Of a DNA stretch of 64,000 nucleotides, positions 28,625-42,204 are shown piece by piece. The DNA comes from Thermococcus pacificus. GTDB taxonomy: Archaea > Methanobacteriota_B > Thermococci > Thermococcales > Thermococcaceae. Below the pieces are notes generated by a model, which saw only the letters and a program-made list of their open reading frames with translations, did no database searches and had not been told where the DNA came from. Location: contig NZ_CP015102.1 of the NCBI RefSeq assembly GCF_002214485.1, positions 930,001-994,000 on the forward strand, read 5' to 3'. The first letter of the stretch is position 1; the number at the start of each line of letters is the position of its first letter. Made by a program: the position numbers and the translations under genes.

Positions 28625-31600
28625 TCATGAAGCCTGGAGCTCCTCGACGGCCTTTTCGAGGATTCTGATGGCATCTTGTATACTGACATATGCTCTCCTG
28701 AAGCGGATCATGGCCAGTACTCCACTCGAAGTCGCCATTGGGTTCATGTATTCAAGGCCCTCCTTGTACCATGCCTCTGCAGCTTGCTGGTAGTTAAGTG
28801 CCATCTGAAGTGTCTCGTTGTCAACACCGAGCTCTACCGCCTTCTGGTAAAGCTCCGTGAAAGTCTGGTTGAGTCTGAGATACCTGCTGTAGTAGAAGTA
28901 GTTAATGCCGCTCACCGCTGGCTTAACTGGCACAAAGTCCACTGTAAACGTAACTGGTGAGCCATACTTGACTTTAACGATTAGATACGTTGCCATACTG
29001 CCAACTTCGTAGTAATAGTCAACTACCCCCTCTCCCTCAACTTTAGCGTAACCGCTGCTGTATGGTAGTGGCACAAGCACGTATCCCTCGTATCCACTGG
29101 GGCCATCAACAGTTATCCTGAGGCGATTTCCATAGGTTTCGTAGGAGGCAACTTGACCGAATCCGGAAATGACTTTTGGAGTTATCCTAGTAGTGTATTC
29201 AATGGTACTATCAAACGGCTCCTTAGCTTTTACTGCTATTTGTGTCTCAATGTCCTGGTACTGGGAATTAATTGCGTTTATCGTGAATGTCTCCTCTAGA
29301 TGCTTAGGCACATAGTAAACTGTCAGAGTACCATCGTCTGTGTAATATGGGACCCCATTTACTACCACTTTTGTCTCTCCTTTTATGGGTTCATCTGTTA
29401 CGGGGTCAATGAACTTTATTTTTATTACAGATCCCTTGCCAATAGTGGCATTTGTTGAAAAGACCATTGTCATGCTTGGTTTTCCTGCCTGAATTATGAT
29501 CGGGGCGTAACTTAAAATCTCCCCAGTGTCGGAGTTTCTAAGGCCAATAATTCCCAAGTAAGTGCCTTCGTCAGATATCGAGACTGACGCTTCAAGAGTT
29601 TCTTTGGCGCCTTTCATGAATTCGAAAGGTTCGCTCTGAATACTTATATCACCGCTGTCCCCGAGGATTTGGTAGTAGAACGTGTAGGTTATCTTGTCGT
29701 GACCAGCTGTGTCGTATCCGTAGACGTATACAAGATAGTACCCTGGGTCGGGCATGAATAGTTCAAGAACTTCCTCACTAGTTGGCCCTATTTGGTCAGT
29801 ATATAAGGTAGTATAATCGTTAATGTACCCATCTTGCAGATCATTAACCATCTGTTCGTATGTTGTGTAATATGCAACGTAGAGATCCAAGTCAGCAGCT
29901 GGATCTTCTGGGTCTGTTATCCCCATCTTCAGGAAGTATGTTGTCGGGTCTACACCTGCATATCCAACTATATCCACTTCATCTTGGCCTACCTGACTCA
30001 TCGTGCCTTCAGCGATATCGAGCCTTCCCATTCCATACCCCACAGGCTCAGCATTAAAGGTTTCGTAGTTATTGATAACCTGAGCTTGGACGTTAATAGT
30101 TCCTGGTTCTGCTATGTCCTTTACTATCAACTCTGGATTCATCTCCACATCACTGGTCATGACTTCAATTTCGTAATGTGCCTTTTCGTATCCGGTGCTG
30201 GCGTACGAGCTAACACTTACATAGGCTGTTATTTCCCAATTTCCTTCAACGGGGTTCTCGACGATCCATGTGTACTCAAGTGGCCCACCTGGACCGGCGT
30301 AGAGGTAACCCGGAACGCCGTCGTAAACAACCTCACCGAGCGGCCTAGCAATGACGAGCTTGACTCTTCCCATTGGAGTGCCCTCACTATCAGTGGGTAT
30401 TCTGAGGGTAATACGGAGTTCCTTGGTCCCACGGGGTACGTTGAAGAAGTAGTGTTTGGTCTCACCTGGATTGGCCGTGTCAGAGATCGTGGCACTGAGT
30501 TCTCCATTCCTGTTGAGCGGAATGTCTACAATAACCGGGACGTAACCGTCGATGTAGCTGGTGTCAGGATCGTCTATGTAAACGAGACCTACGTACGTTC
30601 CACTCTTCTGGAGCCTGGAGTAGTCTATGCTGATGGAGAACTGCCCCATGAGGTCCTCTATGTACCTAGCGTCTGCACCGTGTATGGTTACCTCCGTTGT
30701 GTTCGGGATGATCCAGTCAACGTTTGTGCTTATCGTGTACATCTTGTTCTCAAAGACGTACCCGAGTCCCCATCCCTGCCAATATTCAAGTGGTGAGAAG
30801 TATATTGGGACGCTTCCGGGGAACTCGTCCCTTATGTAGACTCCCCTGTAGAGGTACGGGAATCCGAAGACGCTCTGGAAGTAGCCGTTGAAGTCGACAT
30901 AAGCCTGGGATATTGGTATGAGCGGAACCTCGATGGGGTTCTTGAAGCTTGTAAAGGTCGTGCCAGCGAATATGTATATGCTCGGCTCCTGACTGAGCTC
31001 CTCAAGCTTGGCTATGGCCTTGTCCACCTGAATCAAACCAAAGCCTTGGTCAACCAAAGTTTGGTTCGTTGGCTTGGCGCTTAGCTCAAGGGCCCGCTTT
31101 ATCATGATCGGGTCGTAGGGTATGCCCCTTGCCTTGGCGTAGCTTATCATCAGGGCAACGGCACCGCTGACGTGTGGGGTGGCCATTGAGGTGCCGCTCC
31201 AGAAGCCATAGTACCTATAGGGGTCTTCATAGAGAACCGTGTACCACATCGGCAGGCTGGAGAATATGTCTGTTCCAGGCGCCATAACATCTGGATCGAG
31301 GAGACCATCGTCCCTCGGTCCCCTGCTGGAGCCCATAGCCGGGCCGTTGGCAACTCCCGGCAGGCCGTAGAGAAGCTCCCAGCGCTCGCTCTCCCAGTAG
31401 TTGCCAACTGTGATTGCTAGGTCACTGTCACCCGGAGCGTGGACGCTGTTGGTTGTTGGCCCTTCGTTGCCCGCCGCTATCGCGAACACCACGCCATAGT
31501 AGTCACTGAGCAGGTTAACATAGAATATCTCTGGAGTCTCAAGGCCGTCGTTTATCTCCCCGCCTCCACCGAGGGACATACTAATTACGTCCGCTCCATC

Positions 31601-32911
31601 GAGCGTGGCCTCGATCATTCCGTTGATTATCCAGCTAGTCCTTCCGAATCCCTGTTCTCCTGGGAGGACCTTGTACTCCATGAGCTGGGCGTTGGGGGCA
31701 ACTCCGTAGACACCATAGAACACCGGGTCGCTGGGCAGACCAACGCCCGCAACGGTACCGCTTACGTGGGTTCCGTGACCATGGGCGTCCCACATGAAGT
31801 AAGCCACATTGCCGTAGAAGCCCTCGAAAGCAACTGTAACATTCGTGGTGCTAACAACAACGTAGTCCCTCGTGAGGTCGTAGATGCCCATGGGCTCCTC
31901 ATCGGTGAAGTCGTTATTGAGGTTGAAGTCAATATAGGCAAAGAGGTTTCCACTTTGGTTGACTATAAGGACCGGATATACGTCACTGAGATCTCCAAAG
32001 AGCCCGAAGCCATAGGGATCGTTGGGAACTCCACTGAAGTTATTTAGGTCAAAATACCTCTCAGGGAGCAGTCCAAGATAGTACACGTCCCCAGATATTG
32101 AGCCCACTACATAGTCGCCCATGTGATAGGTAGTTATGGGATCGTGGCCGTAATAATTCGCATAGGCGCCCCAGTAAACAGTAACGTCCTTGTTTACTGA
32201 TATGACACCGCCCGAAACCGTTGTGGTGGTGTGATAAATCTCTACCATTCCCTCGTCGCTCATGTCCTTAATGTGAATAATCTTTGGCCTTCCATCGAGG
32301 GTCGTCTGAAGGAATGGATGAGCAACGTCGATACCAGTGTCGAGGATTGCGACGATAACGTTATCCCCGTAAATTCCATAGTTGTCCCAGACGTTGTACG
32401 CGTTTATTGTAAAGACGCTCATGAACATGTCGGGCAACTTAGGAGACTCCTTTGCGGGGGACTCCGCCAAAACATTCTCCTCCGGGGAGACTGGTTCCTG
32501 GAGTTTTACCATCCTATCTTTCCAGACGTGTAGAATGCCTGGTATATCTGCAAGTTTCTCAACGTTGCTCACAGGCATCTCAATGACGATGAACTGGTAC
32601 TCAGGCCTGCTTATTGGGTCTATCCTTCCAAGATCCTTGAGGGCGTTATAAACTTCCATTGCGTGCTCCCTGTCTGGGGCTACTATCAGCCTTACAGTCC
32701 GGTCGCTAGTCTGCAAGATTCTCTGGATCTCTTTTTGGAGCGCCTCCCCTTTAACAAAGTTAGTATTAGTAGTTGAACTAGCCACTGAAGTCGGGGTGTC
32801 TTTGAGATTATCGGCTGAAGCAGCAGACACCGATATTTCAGGAAGCATCACTGGCACTATTGAAAGGACCATTACTGCCACGATTAAAAGGCTTAACGCC
32901 TTCCTATTCAT
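28625..32911 (-). CDS. secreted pyrolysin-like subtilisin protease
   Basis: 1428-residue S8 serine protease, exported. The signal peptide is at residues 1-30 (KALSLLIVAVMVLSIVP). A propeptide runs to about 160. The catalytic domain has Asp191 (AILDTGID), His379 (GHGTHVSG), the oxyanion Asn in AIAAGNEGP and Ser575 (SGTSMATPHVSG). A large insertion lies between Asp and His, as in pyrolysin. Beta-sandwich modules (LKDTAN..GETKHYFF and later) and a C-terminal helical segment (about 1345-1428) follow. ATG 32911 has GGAGGTGG upstream; the TATA (ATTTATATCG) is about 32960-32971. No C-terminal membrane anchor is seen; it is probably cell-envelope associated. Confidence 0.92.
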   Translation of the reverse strand: MNRKALSLLIVAVMVLSIVPVMLPEISVSAASADNLKDTPTSVASSTTNTNFVKGEALQKEIQRILQTSDRTVRLIVAPDREHAMEVYNALKDLGRIDPISRPEYQFIVIEMPVSNVEKLADIPGILHVWKDRMVKLQEPVSPEENVLAESPAKESPKLPDMFMSVFTINAYNVWDNYGIYGDNVIVAILDTGIDVAHPFLQTTLDGRPKIIHIKDMSDEGMVEIYHTTTTVSGGVISVNKDVTVYWGAYANYYGHDPITTYHMGDYVVGSISGDVYYLGLLPERYFDLNNFSGVPNDPYGFGLFGDLSDVYPVLIVNQSGNLFAYIDFNLNNDFTDEEPMGIYDLTRDYVVVSTTNVTVAFEGFYGNVAYFMWDAHGHGTHVSGTVAGVGLPSDPVFYGVYGVAPNAQLMEYKVLPGEQGFGRTSWIINGMIEATLDGADVISMSLGGGGEINDGLETPEIFYVNLLSDYYGVVFAIAAGNEGPTTNSVHAPGDSDLAITVGNYWESERWELLYGLPGVANGPAMGSSRGPRDDGLLDPDVMAPGTDIFSSLPMWYTVLYEDPYRYYGFWSGTSMATPHVSGAVALMISYAKARGIPYDPIMIKRALELSAKPTNQTLVDQGFGLIQVDKAIAKLEELSQEPSIYIFAGTTFTSFKNPIEVPLIPISQAYVDFNGYFQSVFGFPYLYRGVYIRDEFPGSVPIYFSPLEYWQGWGLGYVFENKMYTISTNVDWIIPNTTEVTIHGADARYIEDLMGQFSISIDYSRLQKSGTYVGLVYIDDPDTSYIDGYVPVIVDIPLNRNGELSATISDTANPGETKHYFFNVPRGTKELRITLRIPTDSEGTPMGRVKLVIARPLGEVVYDGVPGYLYAGPGGPLEYTWIVENPVEGNWEITAYVSVSSYASTGYEKAHYEIEVMTSDVEMNPELIVKDIAEPGTINVQAQVINNYETFNAEPVGYGMGRLDIAEGTMSQVGQDEVDIVGYAGVDPTTYFLKMGITDPEDPAADLDLYVAYYTTYEQMVNDLQDGYINDYTTLYTDQIGPTSEEVLELFMPDPGYYLVYVYGYDTAGHDKITYTFYYQILGDSGDISIQSEPFEFMKGAKETLEASVSISDEGTYLGIIGLRNSDTGEILSYAPIIIQAGKPSMTMVFSTNATIGKGSVIKIKFIDPVTDEPIKGETKVVVNGVPYYTDDGTLTVYYVPKHLEETFTINAINSQYQDIETQIAVKAKEPFDSTIEYTTRITPKVISGFGQVASYETYGNRLRITVDGPSGYEGYVLVPLPYSSGYAKVEGEGVVDYYYEVGSMATYLIVKVKYGSPVTFTVDFVPVKPAVSGINYFYYSRYLRLNQTFTELYQKAVELGVDNETLQMALNYQQAAEAWYKEGLEYMNPMATSSGVLAMIRFRRAYVSIQDAIRILEKAVEELQAS

Positions 32912-33065
32912 CTTGCCACCTCCAGTTGTAGTATTCGCCCTTAATCTAGAATGGACACCGATATAAATATTTCGGCCTTTGAGTATGGTAAACTTAGCAA
33001 TAATACCTATGTACCACCTTAAGTGACTATATTGGGACATTAAATCACGTTTTTTGCAATAAACT

Positions 33066-34115
33066 TCAAACAGACTTTCTCTCCATTCTCAGAAATAGAA
33101 GCGTACTCACAATGAACATCAGCAGGAAAGCATCGACCCCCGGGTCGATTGAATAAATCATTAGTGACAAAACGGTCACCAGGCTTTCCGGAGTCCTCTC
33201 ACTATCGCGAAGAAACATTCCCAGGAGAAACGCCTCAAAGAGCCCCAGCAGGCCAAAGTCAGCTATCGGCTGGCCAAAGAAGAAGTACGTGTAGTTGGTC
33301 GGCCCGTCAAACAGGGAAGCCACCAGATGCCGTGGGTTGTTGCTCAGCAGGAGAGAGCCGTGGAAAAGGCCCCACGGGAGGGAAAGGCGAACGAGGTTGT
33401 GGAAAACCAGGAAAGTGAAGCCTACCCGAATGAAGACGGCTTCCAACCCACCACTCATTCCGACGACCAGAGCCAGTGGAAAAACGCTGAGAGGAACAAG
33501 CCACTTCCTAAGCTGAGGATAGCCTATGTAGACTGTTAGGAAGTACGCCAGGAAAACGAGGAGTGTCAGGGAGCGGAAGGTGCCGAGGAAGAATAGGAAG
33601 GAATACACGAACAGGAGGAGGGTCTTCCATCGAAGCGAAAGCTTTGAATAAGCTATTCCAATAACTGCTAGTATCGCGGCAAGAACCAAAGGACCAACAA
33701 GTTCATATCTTAAACATCTATCTCGAAGGGGTATCCCAACTATTACATAGAGGGACAGGGGTATGAGCAGTGACACTAAAAGGGACTCTTCTGGAAAGAG
33801 CCTGAAGGGATTTACCCCCTTTTTATAAGCCACTAAAACAATAAATGCCACGGGGGTTATAACCACCGGCCGGCTAAGGGAGAGAAGGAAGAACAGCCCG
33901 GCCAAGAAACCCGGAGGAAGCTCGATTTTCGCCGAGTAACCAAGGGCAAAGACCGCGAAGAAGGCGAGGGCATAGACAGTCCCGAGGACGAGCATCGAGA
34001 GTTCAAAGCCCCGGGAGTATATGGTGTCCCTGAGCCCCTCGTCAAAATAGTTAGCGTAGAGTGAAAGGCCAAGATACGAGAAGAAAGCGAGGCTAAAGAT
34101 TTTTAACCCCCTCAC
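33066..34115 (-). CDS. polytopic membrane protein, possible surface-polymer function
   Basis: About 349 residues with roughly ten to eleven hydrophobic helices and short basic loops. One extracellular-type loop carries FDGPTNYTYFFFGQPIAD. The overall look resembles O-antigen ligase/polymerase-like proteins, but no diagnostic motif is visible. The start is unsettled: GTG 34115 behind GGTGGTAAA, or ATG 34136, which would overlap the divergent gene's leader. It diverges from the GT-C fusion gene at 34172, and joint control of surface glycan genes is a guess. Confidence 0.65.
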   Translation of the reverse strand: MRGLKIFSLAFFSYLGLSLYANYFDEGLRDTIYSRGFELSMLVLGTVYALAFFAVFALGYSAKIELPPGFLAGLFFLLSLSRPVVITPVAFIVLVAYKKGVNPFRLFPEESLLVSLLIPLSLYVIVGIPLRDRCLRYELVGPLVLAAILAVIGIAYSKLSLRWKTLLLFVYSFLFFLGTFRSLTLLVFLAYFLTVYIGYPQLRKWLVPLSVFPLALVVGMSGGLEAVFIRVGFTFLVFHNLVRLSLPWGLFHGSLLLSNNPRHLVASLFDGPTNYTYFFFGQPIADFGLLGLFEAFLLGMFLRDSERTPESLVTVLSLMIYSIDPGVDAFLLMFIVSTLLFLRMERKSV

Positions 34116-34171
34116 TTTACCACCAATCAATGTCAAGACAGGAGCTTAAAAACTTGAGGGGTGTCCTCGTA

Positions 34172-36631
34172 ATGAATAAGGAACGCCTTTACCTACCCAT
34201 GATTCTCATCTTGTCCTTCATCGTCAGGCTCATTCCCCACAGGACACTTCTCCTGGCAACCTACGATGAGTACCTCCACCGCGACATAACCCTGAGGATA
34301 GCGAGCCAGGGGGTCGGCTCAATCTCCCGTGACATTCTATCCCTTTTCGGCCTGAGGGCCTACAGCTATCCCCCTCTCTTCCATATAATCGGAGCCGCTT
34401 TCTACCGGGTGTTCCCCTCGGATTACATATTCTTCGTCCTGCCGGCCCTCTATGGCACGTTGGCAGTTCTGGGGTTCTATCTGGCGTTTAAGGAGCTCAC
34501 CGGGGACAGGAACCGGGCAATTTTAGCTACGACCCTCCTGGCCTTTGCCCCTAACTTTATATACAGGACGAGCCTGTACATTCCAGAGAACCTGGGGCTG
34601 TTCCTTTTCTCACTTAGCATGCTCTTCGGCCTCAGGCTCCTGAAGTCAAGGGAGCCCTCAAACTTCCTCCTCTTTGGGGTAGTCTTTCTGGTTTACATGG
34701 TAACCCATAGGGGGTGGCTCTTCTTCGTTCTTGCAGCTTTCTTCGTAATGGTCTCCTACTGGTGGGGTTTCATAAGAAGGAATCTCCAGTACTTCCTGGC
34801 TCTCGCGGTGATCGGGATAATGGTCTACACTCAGGTGTCGTTCATCCAATCGACCGTCGGTGAGCTCGCCCTGAGGCTCCAGAGGAGTGAGGTGAGCTTC
34901 CTCGGTTACTTCAAGTGGATTGGGGTTATTCAGCTCGTCTTTGGTTCACTGGCGACTCCCTACTATCTGAAAAGCGACAGGATAAGGCGCGGCTTCGCAC
35001 TCTGGGCATGGGCGTTTATGCTGGCAGGGGGGGTATCCTTCAGGTTCCGCGATCCATACGCAGCAATACCCCTCTCGGTTATGGCCTCAGAATACATTCT
35101 AGACACGGTAATTCCCAGGATAGGCTCGCTCCTCAGGAAAACCTTCGAGGGCGTTAAGGGGCTCGGGGCAGAGTGGATAAGAAAGACGTCCCAGAAAAAA
35201 TGGGCAACCTCCATCGTGGTGCTCCTCCTCCTTAGTTCGCCGGTCGTCCAGGGGTTCTATGGTGCGTACAAATACGTTGAGGCCCCCACAGTTAGCGACA
35301 GGGAAGCTTATGAGTGGATATCCCAGAACACCCCCGAGAATGCCACCATACTCGTCTGGTGGGACATGGGATACCTCCTGATTGGGAATACTAAGAGAAA
35401 GGACGTTGTAATCTGGAAAAAGGTCTATCAGGGTTTCTTCGGAGAGGCACCAACTGTAAAGGAAGCCTCAAAAGCCTATTTCGATCATGTGGTCATGTTC
35501 AGCTCATCCCAGAGGGAATGGGTGTATTATCTTATGAAAAAATACAATGTGAGTTACGTCTTTGTTGACAGAAAAAGGTACTCCTACGGTCTCGTTCGGT
35601 ACGGCCTCATGGAGTACGCCGCCTACGACACCCATTTCAAGCTCGAGTTCTGCGACGGAAATTCGGTTATATACCGCTTTATTCCGGAGCCAGCTCTAAA
35701 GATGGAGCAGCCCTTCCCCATCGACTACAGCGGCAACTACTCTCCGCTTGTAGGCTTCCTGGAAAAGTTCTGGACCGGCTACAACTATGCAGACTTCGAC
35801 AGCAAGTACAAGGCGTACTTCAACCTCAACGCGTGGATCTTTGACGTGTACTCCCGTCTCTACCAGAAGACAGGGGAAGAGGAATTCAAGGAGAGGGCAA
35901 ACTGGCTACTCAGGTGGCTTTATTACAAGCAGATGAACAACGGTGCCTTCCCCTGGGGCGTTCCCCCGAACGACTACACCCTCTACACGGCCTATACCCT
36001 CGAACCTCTAATTGGGAGTAGCTTTGAGGGAAGCGAAAGAGCCCTCGACCTTCTCCGGGAGAGGCAGAAGGGGGACTTCTTCATGACGACCCCCAAGGAC
36101 AAGAAGGGCTCCCCATTAGTCAACTCCATGCTACTCCCACTCTACAGGGAATTTGGGATACTGAACCGCACCACCGAAAGGAACGTGCTGGAGAAAGCGC
36201 TTAGCGAGCAGAAGGGGGACGGAAGCTGGAACGATAATGTTGGGACGACGACTGCAATAGCTTCGAGCCTTGCCAGGTACTACCAGCTAACAGGCAATGA
36301 AACCGTTCTGAACGCCGTCAGAAAGGCCGCAGAGTGGCTGGCAAAACAGCAGGGAGAGGACGGGAAATTGGAGGACGAGAAGTACGAGTACGCCTTCTCC
36401 CGCTCAACCTACGTCCAGATGGCCTACATATACCACGTTGCCGGCCTTAAAGATGCTGAGGAGCTCACACTCAAGTTCATTCACGAGACCTTTGACCCTA
36501 ACAAAGAAGCTTCCCCATTAGATTCGGTCATCACGATGTACCGCTATTTCAGCTACGCCTACGGGAGCGACAGGGCCCTGGAGATGGTAAACGACCTCCT
36601 GAAGCTCCACCCCCTGCTTGAGTTCGGGTGA
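34172..36631 (+). CDS. STT3-like GT-C membrane protein fused to an alpha/alpha-toroid domain
   Basis: 819 residues. Residues 1-370 hold about a dozen transmembrane helices with an early acidic loop, ATYDEYLHRD, placed like the first catalytic DxD/D motif of GT-C enzymes. Residues about 380-530 resemble the STT3/AglB soluble domain: EAYEWISQNTPENATILVWWDMGYLL, containing the WWDxG signature of oligosaccharyltransferases. Residues about 545-819 are a helical repeat domain with GAFPWGVPP, DGSWNDNVGTTTAIASSLARYY and KLEDEKYEYAFSRSTYVQM, typical of alpha/alpha-toroid folds (terpene-cyclase or glycosidase-like). Glycan transfer at the cell surface is likely; the exact reaction is unknown. ATG 34172 follows GAGGGGTG. 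Confidence 0.75.
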   Translation: MNKERLYLPMILILSFIVRLIPHRTLLLATYDEYLHRDITLRIASQGVGSISRDILSLFGLRAYSYPPLFHIIGAAFYRVFPSDYIFFVLPALYGTLAVLGFYLAFKELTGDRNRAILATTLLAFAPNFIYRTSLYIPENLGLFLFSLSMLFGLRLLKSREPSNFLLFGVVFLVYMVTHRGWLFFVLAAFFVMVSYWWGFIRRNLQYFLALAVIGIMVYTQVSFIQSTVGELALRLQRSEVSFLGYFKWIGVIQLVFGSLATPYYLKSDRIRRGFALWAWAFMLAGGVSFRFRDPYAAIPLSVMASEYILDTVIPRIGSLLRKTFEGVKGLGAEWIRKTSQKKWATSIVVLLLLSSPVVQGFYGAYKYVEAPTVSDREAYEWISQNTPENATILVWWDMGYLLIGNTKRKDVVIWKKVYQGFFGEAPTVKEASKAYFDHVVMFSSSQREWVYYLMKKYNVSYVFVDRKRYSYGLVRYGLMEYAAYDTHFKLEFCDGNSVIYRFIPEPALKMEQPFPIDYSGNYSPLVGFLEKFWTGYNYADFDSKYKAYFNLNAWIFDVYSRLYQKTGEEEFKERANWLLRWLYYKQMNNGAFPWGVPPNDYTLYTAYTLEPLIGSSFEGSERALDLLRERQKGDFFMTTPKDKKGSPLVNSMLLPLYREFGILNRTTERNVLEKALSEQKGDGSWNDNVGTTTAIASSLARYYQLTGNETVLNAVRKAAEWLAKQQGEDGKLEDEKYEYAFSRSTYVQMAYIYHVAGLKDAEELTLKFIHETFDPNKEASPLDSVITMYRYFSYAYGSDRALEMVNDLLKLHPLLEFG

Positions 36632-36843: not shown

Positions 36844-39195
36844 ATGAGCGAATACAAGTTTATAAGATGGTTTGAGGAGCTTGGAAAGAACGACGTTCCC
36901 CTCGTTGGTGGAAAGGGTGCCAACCTCGGAGAAATGACCAACGCGGGAATACCCGTTCCGCCCGGGTTCTGTGTCACCGCTGAGGCCTACAAGTACTTCG
37001 TCGAGAATGTCAAGCTCGAAGACGGTACCGTCCTCCAGGACTGGATTATGAACATCATAGCCCAGACCAACGTTGATGACTCAAAGCAGCTTCAGGAGAA
37101 CACCGCCAAGATCAGGCAGAAGATAATCGAGCTCCCGATGCTCCCCGAGATAGCCAAGGAGATAGAGGACGCTTACAAGAAGCTCAGCCAGAGGTTCAAC
37201 AAGGACGCCGTTTACGTCGCGGTTCGCTCCTCAGCTACCGCCGAGGACCTTCCGGAGGCTTCCTTTGCCGGCCAGCAGGAGACCTACCTCGACGTCTACG
37301 GCGTTGACGACGTCATAGACAAGGTCAAGAAGTGCTGGGCCAGCCTCTGGACTGCCAGGGCTACCTTCTACAGGGCCAAGCAGGGCTTCGACCACAGCAA
37401 GGTCTACCTCTCAGCCGTCGTCCAGAAGATGGTCAACAGCGAGACCAGCGGTGTTATGTTCACCGCCAACCCGGTCACCAACGACAGGAGCGAGATCATG
37501 ATCAACGCCGCCTGGGGTCTCGGTGAGGCCGTCGTCAGCGGCAGCGTTTCCCCGGACGAGTACATTGTCGAGAAGGGCACCTGGAAGATAAAGGAGAAGT
37601 ACATCGCCAAGAAGGAAGTTATGGTCGTCCGCAACCCGGAGACCGGCAAGGGTACCGTCTACGTTAAGGTCGCCGACTACCTCGGGCCGGAATACGTCGA
37701 GAAGCAGGTTCTCACCGACGAGCAGATCATAGAGGTTGCCAAGATGGGTGCCAAGATCGAGGAGCACTACGGCTGGCCGCAGGACATCGAGTGGGCCTAC
37801 GACAAGGACGACGGTAAGCTCTACATCGTCCAGAGCAGGCCGATAACAACGCTCAAGGATGAGGTTAAGACGGAGGAGGCTGAGATGACCGAGGAGATGA
37901 AGGTTCTTCTCAAGGGTCTTGGAGCTTCACCCGGCGTTGGTGCCGGTAAGGTCGTCGTCATATTCGACGCCAGCGAGATTGACAAGGTCAAGGAAGGAGA
38001 TGTCCTCGTCACCACCATGACCAACCCGGACATGGTTCCGGCCATGAAGAGGGCAAGCGCCATCGTCACCGACGAGGGCGGAAGGACCTGCCACGCCGCC
38101 ATCGTTAGCAGGGAGCTTGGCATCCCGGCCGTCGTCGGTACCAAGGAGGCCACCAAGGTCCTCAAGGACGGCATGCTCGTCACCGTTGACGGTACCAGGG
38201 GTGTCGTCTACGAGGGCATAGTCAAGAGCCTCGTTAAGAAGGAGGAGGAAGAGAAAGCAACCGGTGGCCAGGTCGTCGTTGCCGGTGCCCCGCTCGTCAC
38301 CGCCACCGAGGTCAAGGTCAACGTCTCAATGCCCGAGGTTGCCGAGAGGGCAGCTGCCACCGGCGCCGATGGTGTTGGTCTCCTCAGGGCCGAGCACATG
38401 ATCCTCGGCATCGGTGCCCACCCGGTCAAGTTCATCAGGGAGGGCAAGGAGGAGGAGCTTGTTGAGAAGCTCGTCGAGGGCATCAGGAAGGTCGTCGAGG
38501 CCTTCTACCCGAGGCGTGTCTGGTACAGGACCCTCGATGCCCCGACCAACGAGTTCCGCGAGCTTCCGGGCGGAGAGGACGAGCCGGAAGAGAGGAACCC
38601 GATGCTCGGCTGGCGCGGAATAAGGCGCGGTCTCGACCAGCCGGAGCTCCTCAGGGCCGAGTTCAAGGCCATCAAGAGGCTCGTCGACGAGGGCTACGAC
38701 AACATAGGCGTCATGCTCCCGCTCGTCAGCCACCCCGAGCAGATAAGGAAGGCCAAGGAGATAGCCCTCTCAGTTGGCCTCGTCCCGCACAAGGACGTCG
38801 AGTGGGGTGTCATGATCGAGACCCCGGCCAGTGCCCTCATCATCGAGGACCTCATCAAGGAGGGCCTTGACTTCGTCAGCTTCGGCACCAACGACCTCAC
38901 CCAGTACACCCTCGCCATCGACAGGGATAACGAGCGCGTCTTCAAGCTCTACGACGAGAAGCACCCGGCAGTGCTCAAGCTCATCGAGAACGTCATCAAG
39001 ACCTGCAAGAAGTACGGCGTCGAGACCAGCATCTGCGGCCAGGCCGGAAGCGACCCGAAGATGGTCAAGCTCCTCGTCAGGCTCGGCATCGACAGCGTCA
39101 GCGCCAACCCGGACGCGGTCGAGCTCGTCAGGAAGACCGTCGCCAGGGAGGAGGCCAGGATCAGGCTCGAGGCCGCCAGGAAGGCCCTCGAGTGA
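36844..39195 (+). CDS. ppsA: phosphoenolpyruvate synthase
   Basis: 783-residue enzyme interconverting pyruvate + ATP and PEP + AMP + Pi, central to archaeal sugar metabolism. The N-terminal ATP-grasp part has VGGKGANLGEMTNAGIPVPPGF and VRSSATAEDLPEASFAGQQET. The phospho-His is in GGRTCHAAIVSRELGIPAVVGT, and the C-terminal TIM-barrel motif is in SICGQAGSDP. Codon choice is strongly biased to GTC, GCC, CTC and AAG, marking a very highly expressed gene. Promoter: TATA-like TTTTAAAAG (36787-36795), then TATATCACC just downstream, which resembles half of the glycolytic-motif site TATCACn5GTGATA but is not a full match. RBS GGAGGGA. Confidence 0.97.
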   Translation: MSEYKFIRWFEELGKNDVPLVGGKGANLGEMTNAGIPVPPGFCVTAEAYKYFVENVKLEDGTVLQDWIMNIIAQTNVDDSKQLQENTAKIRQKIIELPMLPEIAKEIEDAYKKLSQRFNKDAVYVAVRSSATAEDLPEASFAGQQETYLDVYGVDDVIDKVKKCWASLWTARATFYRAKQGFDHSKVYLSAVVQKMVNSETSGVMFTANPVTNDRSEIMINAAWGLGEAVVSGSVSPDEYIVEKGTWKIKEKYIAKKEVMVVRNPETGKGTVYVKVADYLGPEYVEKQVLTDEQIIEVAKMGAKIEEHYGWPQDIEWAYDKDDGKLYIVQSRPITTLKDEVKTEEAEMTEEMKVLLKGLGASPGVGAGKVVVIFDASEIDKVKEGDVLVTTMTNPDMVPAMKRASAIVTDEGGRTCHAAIVSRELGIPAVVGTKEATKVLKDGMLVTVDGTRGVVYEGIVKSLVKKEEEEKATGGQVVVAGAPLVTATEVKVNVSMPEVAERAAATGADGVGLLRAEHMILGIGAHPVKFIREGKEEELVEKLVEGIRKVVEAFYPRRVWYRTLDAPTNEFRELPGGEDEPEERNPMLGWRGIRRGLDQPELLRAEFKAIKRLVDEGYDNIGVMLPLVSHPEQIRKAKEIALSVGLVPHKDVEWGVMIETPASALIIEDLIKEGLDFVSFGTNDLTQYTLAIDRDNERVFKLYDEKHPAVLKLIENVIKTCKKYGVETSICGQAGSDPKMVKLLVRLGIDSVSANPDAVELVRKTVAREEARIRLEAARKALE

Positions 39196-39216: not shown

Positions 39217-39329
39217 CTACTTCGTTTTGAGTCTGTATCGTTGTTCTGGTTATAATGGGACTGCATCTTGGTAGCTGGCTCTTTTATCCACAACAAACTT
39301 TTTATACCAACGTTTCGATAGCCGTCTCA

Positions 39330-40739
39330 ATGAGGAGCGAGAAAGTTGAAGCCATGCGCGAGCAGATCCTCAACGGCCCGATAGTCAAAACGCTCATCCT
39401 GTTAGCATACCCTCTGATAATCAACCAGCTCGTTCAGGTCCTCTACAACCTCACCGACACGTTCTGGCTCGGTAAACTTGGCAGGACTGAACTTTCCGCC
39501 CCGGGAACTGCCTGGCCCCTCGTGTGGTTCTTTATGAGTATAGGCATGGGCTTTGCAACTGCTGGCTTCGCCTTCGTGAGCCAGTACGTCGGTGCCAGGG
39601 AATACGATAAGGCGAATCGCGCTGCTGGAGCGCTCTATTCCCTCATGCTCATCTTCGCCACAGCAGTTGGCATAACCGGAGTGCTTCTCGCCCCCCAACT
39701 GCTCCACCTGATGAACGTCAGCGATACCATCTACCCCTACGCGCTCAGCTACACTAGGGTCATATTCGGGGGGATACCCTTCTCCTTCACCCTCTTCGCC
39801 TTCAACTTCCTGCTGAGGGCGGTTGGAGATACGAAGACACCGGTCAAGATAAACATCGCCACGGTAATCCTTAACATAATCCTCGACCCCTTATTCATCT
39901 TCGGCTGGGGGCCGTTTCCAGAGCTCGGCGTTGTCGGAGCGGCGATAGCGACGATGCTCTCCAACACGGCCGGTTCCATAGTAGGCGGCTACCTTCTGTT
40001 CACGGGTAAGGTGGGAATTCACATCACCCCTGAGACCCTGAAGCCGGATTTCAACTTCTACTCCCGCATCTTCCGCGTCGGCCTTCCGGCGAGCATCGGT
40101 AGCTCAACAACGGCTTTGGGCTTCGTTATTCTGACGAGGGTTATCTTTACAATCGGAAAGCTCTACGGCCAGGCTCACGGCATCCCCAACTTCGAGGACG
40201 TTGCTTTTGCCACATACAGCATAACCAACCGCCTAACGAACTTCATGTTCGCCTTCTCAGATGGAATCAGCATGGCCATGGGAACTATGGTTGGTCAAGC
40301 CATAGGGGCGAAGCTCTATGACAGGGCAAAAACCATAGCCGAGAAGACGATGGTCATAAACTTCACGATACTCGGCGTTGGAACGCTCCTCTTCATATTC
40401 TTCCGCGTGCCCATCTTCAGGTTCTTCATAAATGACCCGGCCGTCATAGCCGAGAGCGCCAAGGTTGTGAAGTACTTCTCGGCATCTCTGCCCTTCTTCG
40501 GGATCTTTGCAGCGGTAAACAACGTCTTTCAGAGCGCAGGACAGACAAAGAAGAGCATGGTGCTCGGCATGGTGAGGCTCTGGGGGATAAGGCTCCCGCT
40601 CAGCTACGGTCTCGGGGTTCTGATGAGAGACACCGCCGGGATGTGGCTTGGGATGGGCCTGAGCAACGTCATTGGGGCGGTGGTTGCCCTGGCTTGGTTC
40701 CTGAGGGGAAGCTGGATGAAGGCAATAATCGAGGAGTAG
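39330..40739 (+). CDS. MATE-family multidrug/cation efflux transporter (copy 1)
   Basis: 469-residue, 12-helix MATE transporter exchanging Na+ or H+ for organic cations. It has two homologous halves, with GDTKTPVKINIATVILNIILDP in the first and SAGQTKKSMVLGMVRLWGIRLPLSY in the second. The start at ATG 39330 is chosen by alignment with copy 2, which also has 8 residues before MREQILNGP. It is only about 25 bp after a TATA-like TTTTTATACC (39298-39307), so the mRNA may be nearly leaderless. ATG 39354 is the alternative. Copy 2 follows 43 bp downstream. Confidence 0.87.
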   Translation: MRSEKVEAMREQILNGPIVKTLILLAYPLIINQLVQVLYNLTDTFWLGKLGRTELSAPGTAWPLVWFFMSIGMGFATAGFAFVSQYVGAREYDKANRAAGALYSLMLIFATAVGITGVLLAPQLLHLMNVSDTIYPYALSYTRVIFGGIPFSFTLFAFNFLLRAVGDTKTPVKINIATVILNIILDPLFIFGWGPFPELGVVGAAIATMLSNTAGSIVGGYLLFTGKVGIHITPETLKPDFNFYSRIFRVGLPASIGSSTTALGFVILTRVIFTIGKLYGQAHGIPNFEDVAFATYSITNRLTNFMFAFSDGISMAMGTMVGQAIGAKLYDRAKTIAEKTMVINFTILGVGTLLFIFFRVPIFRFFINDPAVIAESAKVVKYFSASLPFFGIFAAVNNVFQSAGQTKKSMVLGMVRLWGIRLPLSYGLGVLMRDTAGMWLGMGLSNVIGAVVALAWFLRGSWMKAIIEE

Positions 40740-40782
40740 CTTTTTATTGGCGCATTTCGACTACTGTCTAACTGTGGTGCTG

Positions 40783-42204
40783 ATGGAGCGCGGAAAACTG
40801 CTCAGAATGCGCGAGGAAATACTCAACGGCCCCATTGAAAAGACACTCCTCAAGTTAGCATATCCTCTAATCGTCAACAACCTCGTTCAGGTTCTCTACA
40901 ACATAACGGACACATTCTGGCTTGGAAAGCTCGGGAGGGAGGCGTTGGCCGCTCCTGGGACCAGCTGGCCGATAATAGGAACCCTAATGGCCCTCGGCAT
41001 GGGCTTTGCAACGGCCGGCTTTGCCCTCGTCGGCCAGTACATAGGCGCGGGGAACTACGAAAGGGCCAACCGCTCCGCTGGAGCGCTCTACTCGCTCATG
41101 CTCCTCTTCTCCACGGCAACCGCCATAATAAGCCTGGCCATCCTCCCCTACGCGCTCCGCTTCATGAAGGTCACACCCAACGTCTACCCATACGCAAAGG
41201 CCTACGCGCAGGTGGTCTTCGCCGGCGTACCACTGTCATTCTCCTTCATGGCGTTCTCTGCCCTCATGAGGGCTTCTGGAGATACAAAGACGCCCGTAAA
41301 GATAAGCATGCTTACCGTTGGGATGAACATAGTCCTCGACCCGATTTTCATATTCGTCCTTGGGCTCGGCGTTGAGGGAGCGGCGATTGCCACGGTTCTC
41401 TCAAACGGCACTGGAGCCATAATCGGCGCGAAGATTCTGACAAGCGGGAAGGCCGGCCTGCACCTCACGCGCGAGACCATGAAGCCTGATTTCGGGTTTT
41501 ACAGGAAGATATTCCACGTTGGCCTTCCGTCGGCCGTTGGCCAGTCAGCGGACAGCTTCGGCTTCGTCGTCCTCACAAGGATCATCTACGGCTACGGCGA
41601 CGTGGTTTACGCTGCCTACACCATAACCACCCGCCTCGTCAACTTCATAACGAGCATAGCGAGGGGCGTTAGCATGGCCATGGGGACGATGATAGCCCAG
41701 AACGTTGGGGCCGAAAACTACGGGAGGGCCAAGAAAATAGCTGAGAGGGCAATGGTGATTAACTTCCTCATAGCGAGCTTTGCGATAGTTGTTATCGGCC
41801 TCTTCCGGGTTCCCGTTTTCAGGGTCTTCCTCGACGACCCAGCGGTTATAGCCCAGAGTGAGTACGTGCTCAAGTACTTCCTCATCTCCGTGCCCTTCTT
41901 CAACGGGATATTCGTCGTAGTCACGAGGACCTTTAGCTCAGCAGGCCACACAAAGAAGAGCATGTTCCTCAGCATGCTGCGCCTCTGGGGCCTCAGGATT
42001 CCGCTTAGCTACGCCTTCGGCTACGTCGGTGCTATAACGGTGCTCGGCCTCACGATACCACTGGCGAAGCTTTTCGGCTTCACGAGCAAAGGCGTATTCT
42101 TCGGGATGGGCATGAGCAACTTTCTGGCGGCGCTGGTGGCTCTAGCATGGTTCATGCGTGGAACCTGGATGAGGCGCATTATCGAAGATGAATCAAAAAA
42201 GTGA
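40783..42204 (+). CDS. MATE-family multidrug/cation efflux transporter (copy 2)
   Basis: 473-residue MATE paralogue of the preceding gene, very similar throughout (LNGPIEKTLLKLAYPLIVNNLVQVLYNITDTFWLGKLGREALAAPG). The differences concentrate in the C-terminal loop, where it carries an extra VLGLTIPLAKLFGFTSKG stretch. The start is ATG 40783 behind GGTGC; the frame from 40747 lacks an RBS. Tandem duplication with divergence suggests different substrates or a heteromeric use; nothing in the sequence decides this. Confidence 0.87.
   Translation: MERGKLLRMREEILNGPIEKTLLKLAYPLIVNNLVQVLYNITDTFWLGKLGREALAAPGTSWPIIGTLMALGMGFATAGFALVGQYIGAGNYERANRSAGALYSLMLLFSTATAIISLAILPYALRFMKVTPNVYPYAKAYAQVVFAGVPLSFSFMAFSALMRASGDTKTPVKISMLTVGMNIVLDPIFIFVLGLGVEGAAIATVLSNGTGAIIGAKILTSGKAGLHLTRETMKPDFGFYRKIFHVGLPSAVGQSADSFGFVVLTRIIYGYGDVVYAAYTITTRLVNFITSIARGVSMAMGTMIAQNVGAENYGRAKKIAERAMVINFLIASFAIVVIGLFRVPVFRVFLDDPAVIAQSEYVLKYFLISVPFFNGIFVVVTRTFSSAGHTKKSMFLSMLRLWGLRIPLSYAFGYVGAITVLGLTIPLAKLFGFTSKGVFFGMGMSNFLAALVALAWFMRGTWMRRIIEDESKK

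Follow-up and report, generated by a model that had tools for sequence, protein, structure and literature searches.

A divergent pair of STT3-toroid and Wzy-like genes forms one of two alternative modules beside pps in Thermococcaceae

The window, a stretch of 64,000 nucleotides from Thermococcus pacificus, carries two divergent genes between a pyrolysin-like subtilase and pps. They are named here STT3T, for the STT3-toroid protein, and WzyT, for its Wzy-like partner. Residue numbers of STT3T are counted from an upstream ATG at 34130, residue 15 being the ATG at 34172. The features of the locus are as follows.

28625-33040, minus strand: pyrolysin-like subtilase, left-hand landmark of the swap site
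33066-34136, minus strand: WzyT, Wzy-like O-antigen polymerase (PF01901), divergent partner; its true start may be a GTG near 34115
34172-36631, plus strand: STT3T, 819 residues; the open reading frame could reach upstream to 34130
34172-35254, plus strand: GT-C membrane half of STT3T, with profile matches to AglB-S and STT3 and Foldseek matches to STT3A/B, AfAglB, DPY19, ArnT and PglB
34262-34279, plus strand: YDEYLH in the first external loop, equivalent of the first DXD Asp; D46, Y48 and H50 invariant in 20 diverse members
34583-34588, plus strand: second acidic motif (P152-E153), opposite the D of RGDN in the alignment with AglB-S
34706-34717, plus strand: HRGW, invariant family-wide
35039-35059, plus strand: FRFRDPY, invariant family-wide
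35282-35704, plus strand: predicted extracytoplasmic core, resembling the central-core unit of STT3
35357-35371, plus strand: WWDMG; W-W-D-x-G invariant in 30 of 30 Thermococcaceae, degenerate elsewhere
35372-35404, plus strand: YLLIGNTKRKD, whose Y, G, T, R and D are kept family-wide
35729-36628, plus strand: (alpha/alpha)6 toroid domain of STT3T
36844-39195, plus strand: pps (PEP synthase), right-hand landmark of the swap site

A single open frame spans 34130-36631 of the plus strand. The start at 34172 is likely that of the STT3T gene, since the alignment with 29 further Thermococcaceae members begins at this conserved ATG, upstream of which residues are variable, and an AT-rich, TATA-like stretch lies just 5' of it. 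A chance or mis-called frame is ruled out by full-length relatives, found at 50-76% identity in Thermococcaceae and at 33-46% in other archaea. In two genomes the gene is divided between two frames (G007:C1:1189951-1192412, 163 and 712 residues; G373, L228 8269-10655, 559 and 257 residues), for which decay, sequencing error and a split gene are the candidates.

Pfam places PMT_2 in the N-terminal half and Pec_lyase and C5-epim_C in the C-terminal half. The AlphaFold2 model of the full-length protein is of moderate quality (pLDDT 73.5); Foldseek matches it to the STT3 of human and yeast (E about 2e-8) and to AfAglB, DPY19, ArnT and PglB, and its C-terminal half to class II terpene cyclases, UGL and sugar epimerases. 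STT3 proteins are the best solved relatives, whether the query is the single sequence (E 4e-6, the match spanning WWDMG) or the family profile (E 1.6e-12, two stretches matched). Profile-profile comparison with the Thermococcales AglB-S covers 385 columns (probability 98.7, E 3e-16; probability 99.4 against all AglB types) and pairs YDEYLH with YDPYFH, PEN with GDN and WWDMG with WWDYG. All the parts described in the sequence-only reading are there, namely a GT-C-like membrane half, an acidic first loop, WWDMG and a helical-repeat C-terminus with QxxDGxW-type motifs; the alignments and the fold match bear out that the membrane half is homologous to STT3/AglB, WWDMG falling at the position of WWDYG. 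STT3T may work like STT3 and, by homology, would face the extracytoplasmic side.

The oligosaccharyltransferase motifs are defined in PMC8342417 and PMC3703281. The first DXD Asp, in EL1, is present (D46, 20 of 20 diverse members), while the second DXD position, in EL2, is a Glu instead of an Asp (E153, again in all 20). Invariant in 30 of 30 Thermococcaceae members are D46, H50, E153, E254, R305, R307 and WWDxG, and FRFRDPY would occupy the place of the conserved transmembrane Arg segment of STT3. The TIXE/SVSE consensus of EL5 is absent from STT3T, E254 being found in 10 of the 20 diverse members and P, A or T in the rest. The Asp of the DK motif is replaced by Gly in all 30 Thermococcaceae members, of which 30 keep the K/R and 29 the M; this K/R-xxx-M remnant of a DK or MI motif is mostly missing from distant members. 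As judged from these alignments, STT3T appears to fail the motif tests for a sequon-reading oligosaccharyltransferase.

About 40 of 94 Thermococcaceae genomes contain a relative of STT3T, as do, in a search covering 396 related genomes, 12 other archaeal genomes. That search overturned the restriction to Thermococcaceae hinted at by phylum searches and a contig scan. The 12 genomes represent five archaeal families, and ten of them encode methyl-coenzyme M reductase and are hence methanogens. Eleven of these outside relatives were aligned, the twelfth being the split G373, and all eleven possess both domains. None retains WWDxG, which becomes WWTTG, TMDDA, TLEDS, RINES or WKEEG. Since this motif is degenerate in distant full-length relatives, the sequon-pocket motif would be no requirement of the family, and WWDxG does not support the oligosaccharyltransferase chemistry that had been read from it. 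The 20 diverse members share 74 invariant positions; those of the membrane half and core include D46, Y48, H50, E153, HRGW, FRFRDPY and Y415, G419, T421, R423 and D425 (YxxxGxTxRxD). Trees of the membrane half and of the toroid half group the same lineages, with a long-branch warning for the toroid tree, and the distances of the two halves correlate within Thermococcaceae (rho 0.91). The presence of both domains in distant relatives, the congruent trees and this correlation therefore suggest that the fusion is old and stable.

WzyT scores 59.2 bits against PF01901 (cut-off 24.2), its assignment as a Wzy being based on Pfam and HHpred-type similarity. A divergent PF01901 gene directly adjoins STT3T at all 30 distinct Thermococcaceae loci examined, and near-orthologues of the two proteins are found in the same genomes, fragmented assemblies excepted. 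The same divergent adjacency is observed in the methanogen G337. In G220 and G375 the order is STT3T, GT4, PF01901 and polysaccharide flippase (flippase and GT4 typed in G220), and PF01901 is encoded in 12 of the 12 outside genomes. Such adjacency is evidence of a shared pathway, not of chemistry. In eight methanogen genomes (L220-L226, L228) the STT3T relative is immediately preceded by a gene of the same direction, which is geranylgeranyl-reductase-like in the three tested; the Wzy of methanogens with such a neighbour is located elsewhere in the genome. These neighbours hint at polyprenyl lipid substrates or a link to polyprenyl lipid reduction. In one genus the WzyT gene is tandem-duplicated (L022, L023, L025, L027, L094). 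A literature search returned nothing on Thermococcales Wzy/STT3 systems except PMC5898192, and no experimental test of archaeal Wzy-like polymerases.

The Wzy partner and the exchange of modules at this site, both missed in the sequence-only reading, carry most of the functional information. In genomes devoid of STT3T, the same position on the pps side is occupied at 18 of 19 loci by a cassette in which a gene for a TrmB-like protein is joined by two PF01901 genes and often by a PMT_2 gene, the latter usually being the one that adjoins pps. This cassette has been linked by prediction to lipopolysaccharide biosynthesis or glycosylation (PMC5898192). Among 74 good genomes, 35 carry the cassette, 31 carry WzyT-STT3T, none carries both intact and 8 carry neither, as raw genome counts that ignore shared ancestry. 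The eight genomes with neither (L149-L156) form one clade in which the site is empty and the pyrolysin gene abuts pps. At two loci, L088 (G077:C1:598000-614000) and L148 (G081), the cassette lies between a C-terminal remnant of the toroid, beside pps, and a 130-residue C-terminal remnant of WzyT. These remnants record a module replacement in the sequence itself.

The module state changes at least 13 times on a FastTree phylogeny of AglB-L from 76 genomes, a count based on this one gene tree; T. pacificus carries WzyT-STT3T, while its nearest relatives carry the cassette. STT3T distances track those of AglB-L (rho 0.86), so that the two modules resemble long-standing alternatives, swapped chiefly between relatives. 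A search for spread on plasmids or viruses gave no match. In G076 (L134 and L157) the cassette is found at another place and the pps site is empty, from which it follows that the cassette is able to relocate or to be reacquired at a different site.

The modules correspond in part: WzyT aligns with the second Wzy of the cassette (hhalign probability 100, E 3e-41), and STT3T stands where the cassette has its PMT_2 gene, next to pps. The toroid may replace the TrmB-like sugar-binding protein, as both would be outside the membrane. Neither module at the pps site is accompanied by a sugar-nucleotide gene or one for a cytoplasmic glycosyltransferase, and we infer from this that the two probably start from a common lipid-linked precursor, which they polymerise and finally transfer in different ways. 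The swap would then probably alter the polymerisation and placement of this precursor, not its composition. Mutually exclusive modules at one site suggest a variable cell-surface sugar coat, and their repeated replacement suggests that surface variation is under selection, possibly by viruses.

Homology and gene context together make it fairly probable that STT3T serves a Wzy-dependent pathway for surface polysaccharide or lipoglycan, in which it would act as a glycan transferase of the GT-C type outside the cytoplasm. This reading draws on the STT3 homology, the Wzy linkage within and outside Thermococcaceae and the geranylgeranyl-reductase-like neighbours, and further on the cassette of PMC5898192 at the same site, the exclusion counts, the empty sites and the switches of module. 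A dolichyl-(pyro)phosphate-linked glycan would be made in the cytoplasm and flipped outward, where WzyT would polymerise or extend it. STT3T would then take a sugar or glycan off the lipid carrier and attach it to an acceptor with the help of D46, E153 and the arginines of RFRDPY, and the toroid, on the same outer side, would bind or process the glycan. WzyT and STT3T would together make up one of the two interchangeable modules. Of this scheme, the homology, the conserved residues, the fusion, the Wzy linkage and the exclusion and replacement of modules are observed, and donor, acceptor, sidedness, order of steps and toroid role are predicted. A bolder version, offered tentatively, makes STT3T an archaeal terminal ligase of a Wzx/Wzy-type pathway, which would hand a polysaccharide polymerised by Wzy on to an acceptor, either a lipid or the S-layer, the toroid capturing or editing the chain, with Thermococcaceae switching surface type by wholesale replacement of the module.

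The toroid has been analysed separately. Predicted alone by AlphaFold2, it folds with high confidence into 13 helices (pLDDT 91.4, pTM 0.91), and Foldseek matches it to many toroid families at TM-scores of about 0.5-0.6, class II cyclases being at the top. The C-terminus is therefore a true toroid, other than the ordinary periplasmic domain of AglB. Its earlier assignment to the cyclases, glycosidases or epimerases stays unproven, as the matches spread over many families with no conserved catalytic signature. It is possible, though on balance doubtful, that STT3T is bifunctional, with the toroid as an active sugar enzyme (C5-epimerase, lyase or hydrolase) that would modify the glycan either ahead of its transfer or afterwards, a proposal compatible with the transferase reading. 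The toroid scores above the cut-offs of Pec_lyase and C5-epim_C (PF06662, D-glucuronyl C5-epimerase: 29.9 bits against 23.3, with 7 of 18 members matching at E 1e-3, other toroid families scoring equally or better), and the archaeal GlcA C5-epimerase Agl32 is likewise all-helical (PMC13308652). Invariant aromatic and polar residues are concentrated on the loops of one face (25 of 81 positions, against 0 of 18), which suggests a binding or active site there. Against activity, the profile matches are scattered across Pec_lyase, GH127, GH88, C5-epim_C and SQHop. Moreover, among the toroid residues invariant in 20 diverse members (E545, W548, G550, Y553, Q694, G698, W700 and Y761), E545 is the only carboxylate, position 555 being always D or E. 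Of an AGE-type catalytic His set, H769 (29 of 30) and H827 (25 of 30) are nearly conserved in Thermococcaceae, and none is invariant family-wide. The toroid thus matches no single enzyme family.

Rather unlikely is a role for STT3T like that of PMT/ArnT or the GT-C enzymes of three-component systems, in which dolichyl-phosphate sugars would serve as donors and single sugars would be added, on the outer face, to a glycan still growing or already finished. PMT_2 does match 18 of 18 members tested, and the pps-side gene of the alternative module is usually of this family; yet the membrane half lies nearer to AglB-S than to that PMT_2 protein (hhalign scores of 131 and 80), which is rejected as its closest relative, and STT3T keeps the STT3-like central core. 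Less probable still, STT3T would be one more oligosaccharyltransferase of the AglB type, with proteins as its N-glycosylation substrates and the toroid as an unusual peripheral unit. AglB-S is indeed the best profile match, and in Thermococcaceae the invariant WWDxG and the K/R490-xxx-M494 segment are such that part of the Ser/Thr pocket may persist. The missing TIXE consensus, the unconserved E254, the absent Asp of DK and the loss of WWDxG in full-length relatives speak against it, and PF02516 has no match in the T. pacificus genome, in a search that missed AglB-L as well. A canonical AglB-L is already encoded by a gene of its own, in T. pacificus as in Thermococcaceae at large, which also supports the role outside AglB that had been proposed for STT3T. 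Finally, a class II terpene-cyclase-like toroid acting on the polyprenyl carrier is very improbable: despite the cyclases heading the Foldseek matches and the geranylgeranyl-reductase-like neighbours in methanogens, the DxDD motif occurs in just 14 of 30 Thermococcaceae members, its second Asp, D557, is unconserved in distant members (10 of 20 diverse members), and GH76, UGL, AGE and C3d structures reach the same TM-scores. The cyclase reading of the DFD motif is accordingly rejected.

With STT3, AglB and PglB, of which the Thermococcales AglB-S is the nearest, STT3T shares the GT-C fold, the first-loop Asp, an acidic second motif and, in Thermococcaceae, the WWDxG core. It differs by a shortened EL5 loop, by a toroid in place of the IS/P units and by its linkage to a Wzy. 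Compared with the arCOG03206 cassette (two PF01901 proteins, TrmB-like arCOG03414 and PMT arCOG00563/00566; PMC5898192), which likewise places a GT-C gene beside pps, the WzyT-STT3T module has one Wzy, no TrmB-like protein, an STT3-toroid protein instead of a PMT_2 protein of about 490 residues, and a divergent gene order. The toroid resembles Agl32 and other (alpha/alpha)6 enzymes in being all-helical with a possible glycan substrate, but it is fused to a membrane transferase and no catalytic signature was found in common. A linked polymerase, with flippase and GT4 in G220/G375, recalls the bacterial Wzx/Wzy pathway with its terminal ligase, whereas the putative transferase is GT-C/STT3-like with a toroid and not of the O-antigen-ligase type. 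An old archaeal architecture, present in methanogens and one further lineage as well as in Thermococcaceae, is thereby defined, in which predicted STT3-like catalysis is untied from the sequon-binding motif, joined to a toroid and tied to archaeal Wzy-like polymerases. The swap site, for its part, provides natural pairs of close relatives that differ by one module, so that the surface product of each is directly comparable.

A second GT-C protein of 756 residues, encoded in the same genome at G000:C1:1129320 (L090 2078-4348), weakly matches the archaeal STT3 profile; it was rejected as AglB-S, its sequence being devoid of WWDYG. The 1471-residue subtilase at 28625-33040 has relatives at the swap site that vary between 24 and 68% identity, and this neighbour may diversify too. 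Downstream of pps, at 39255-42204 of the window, lie two tandem MATE transporter genes that are also present at the loci of many relatives.
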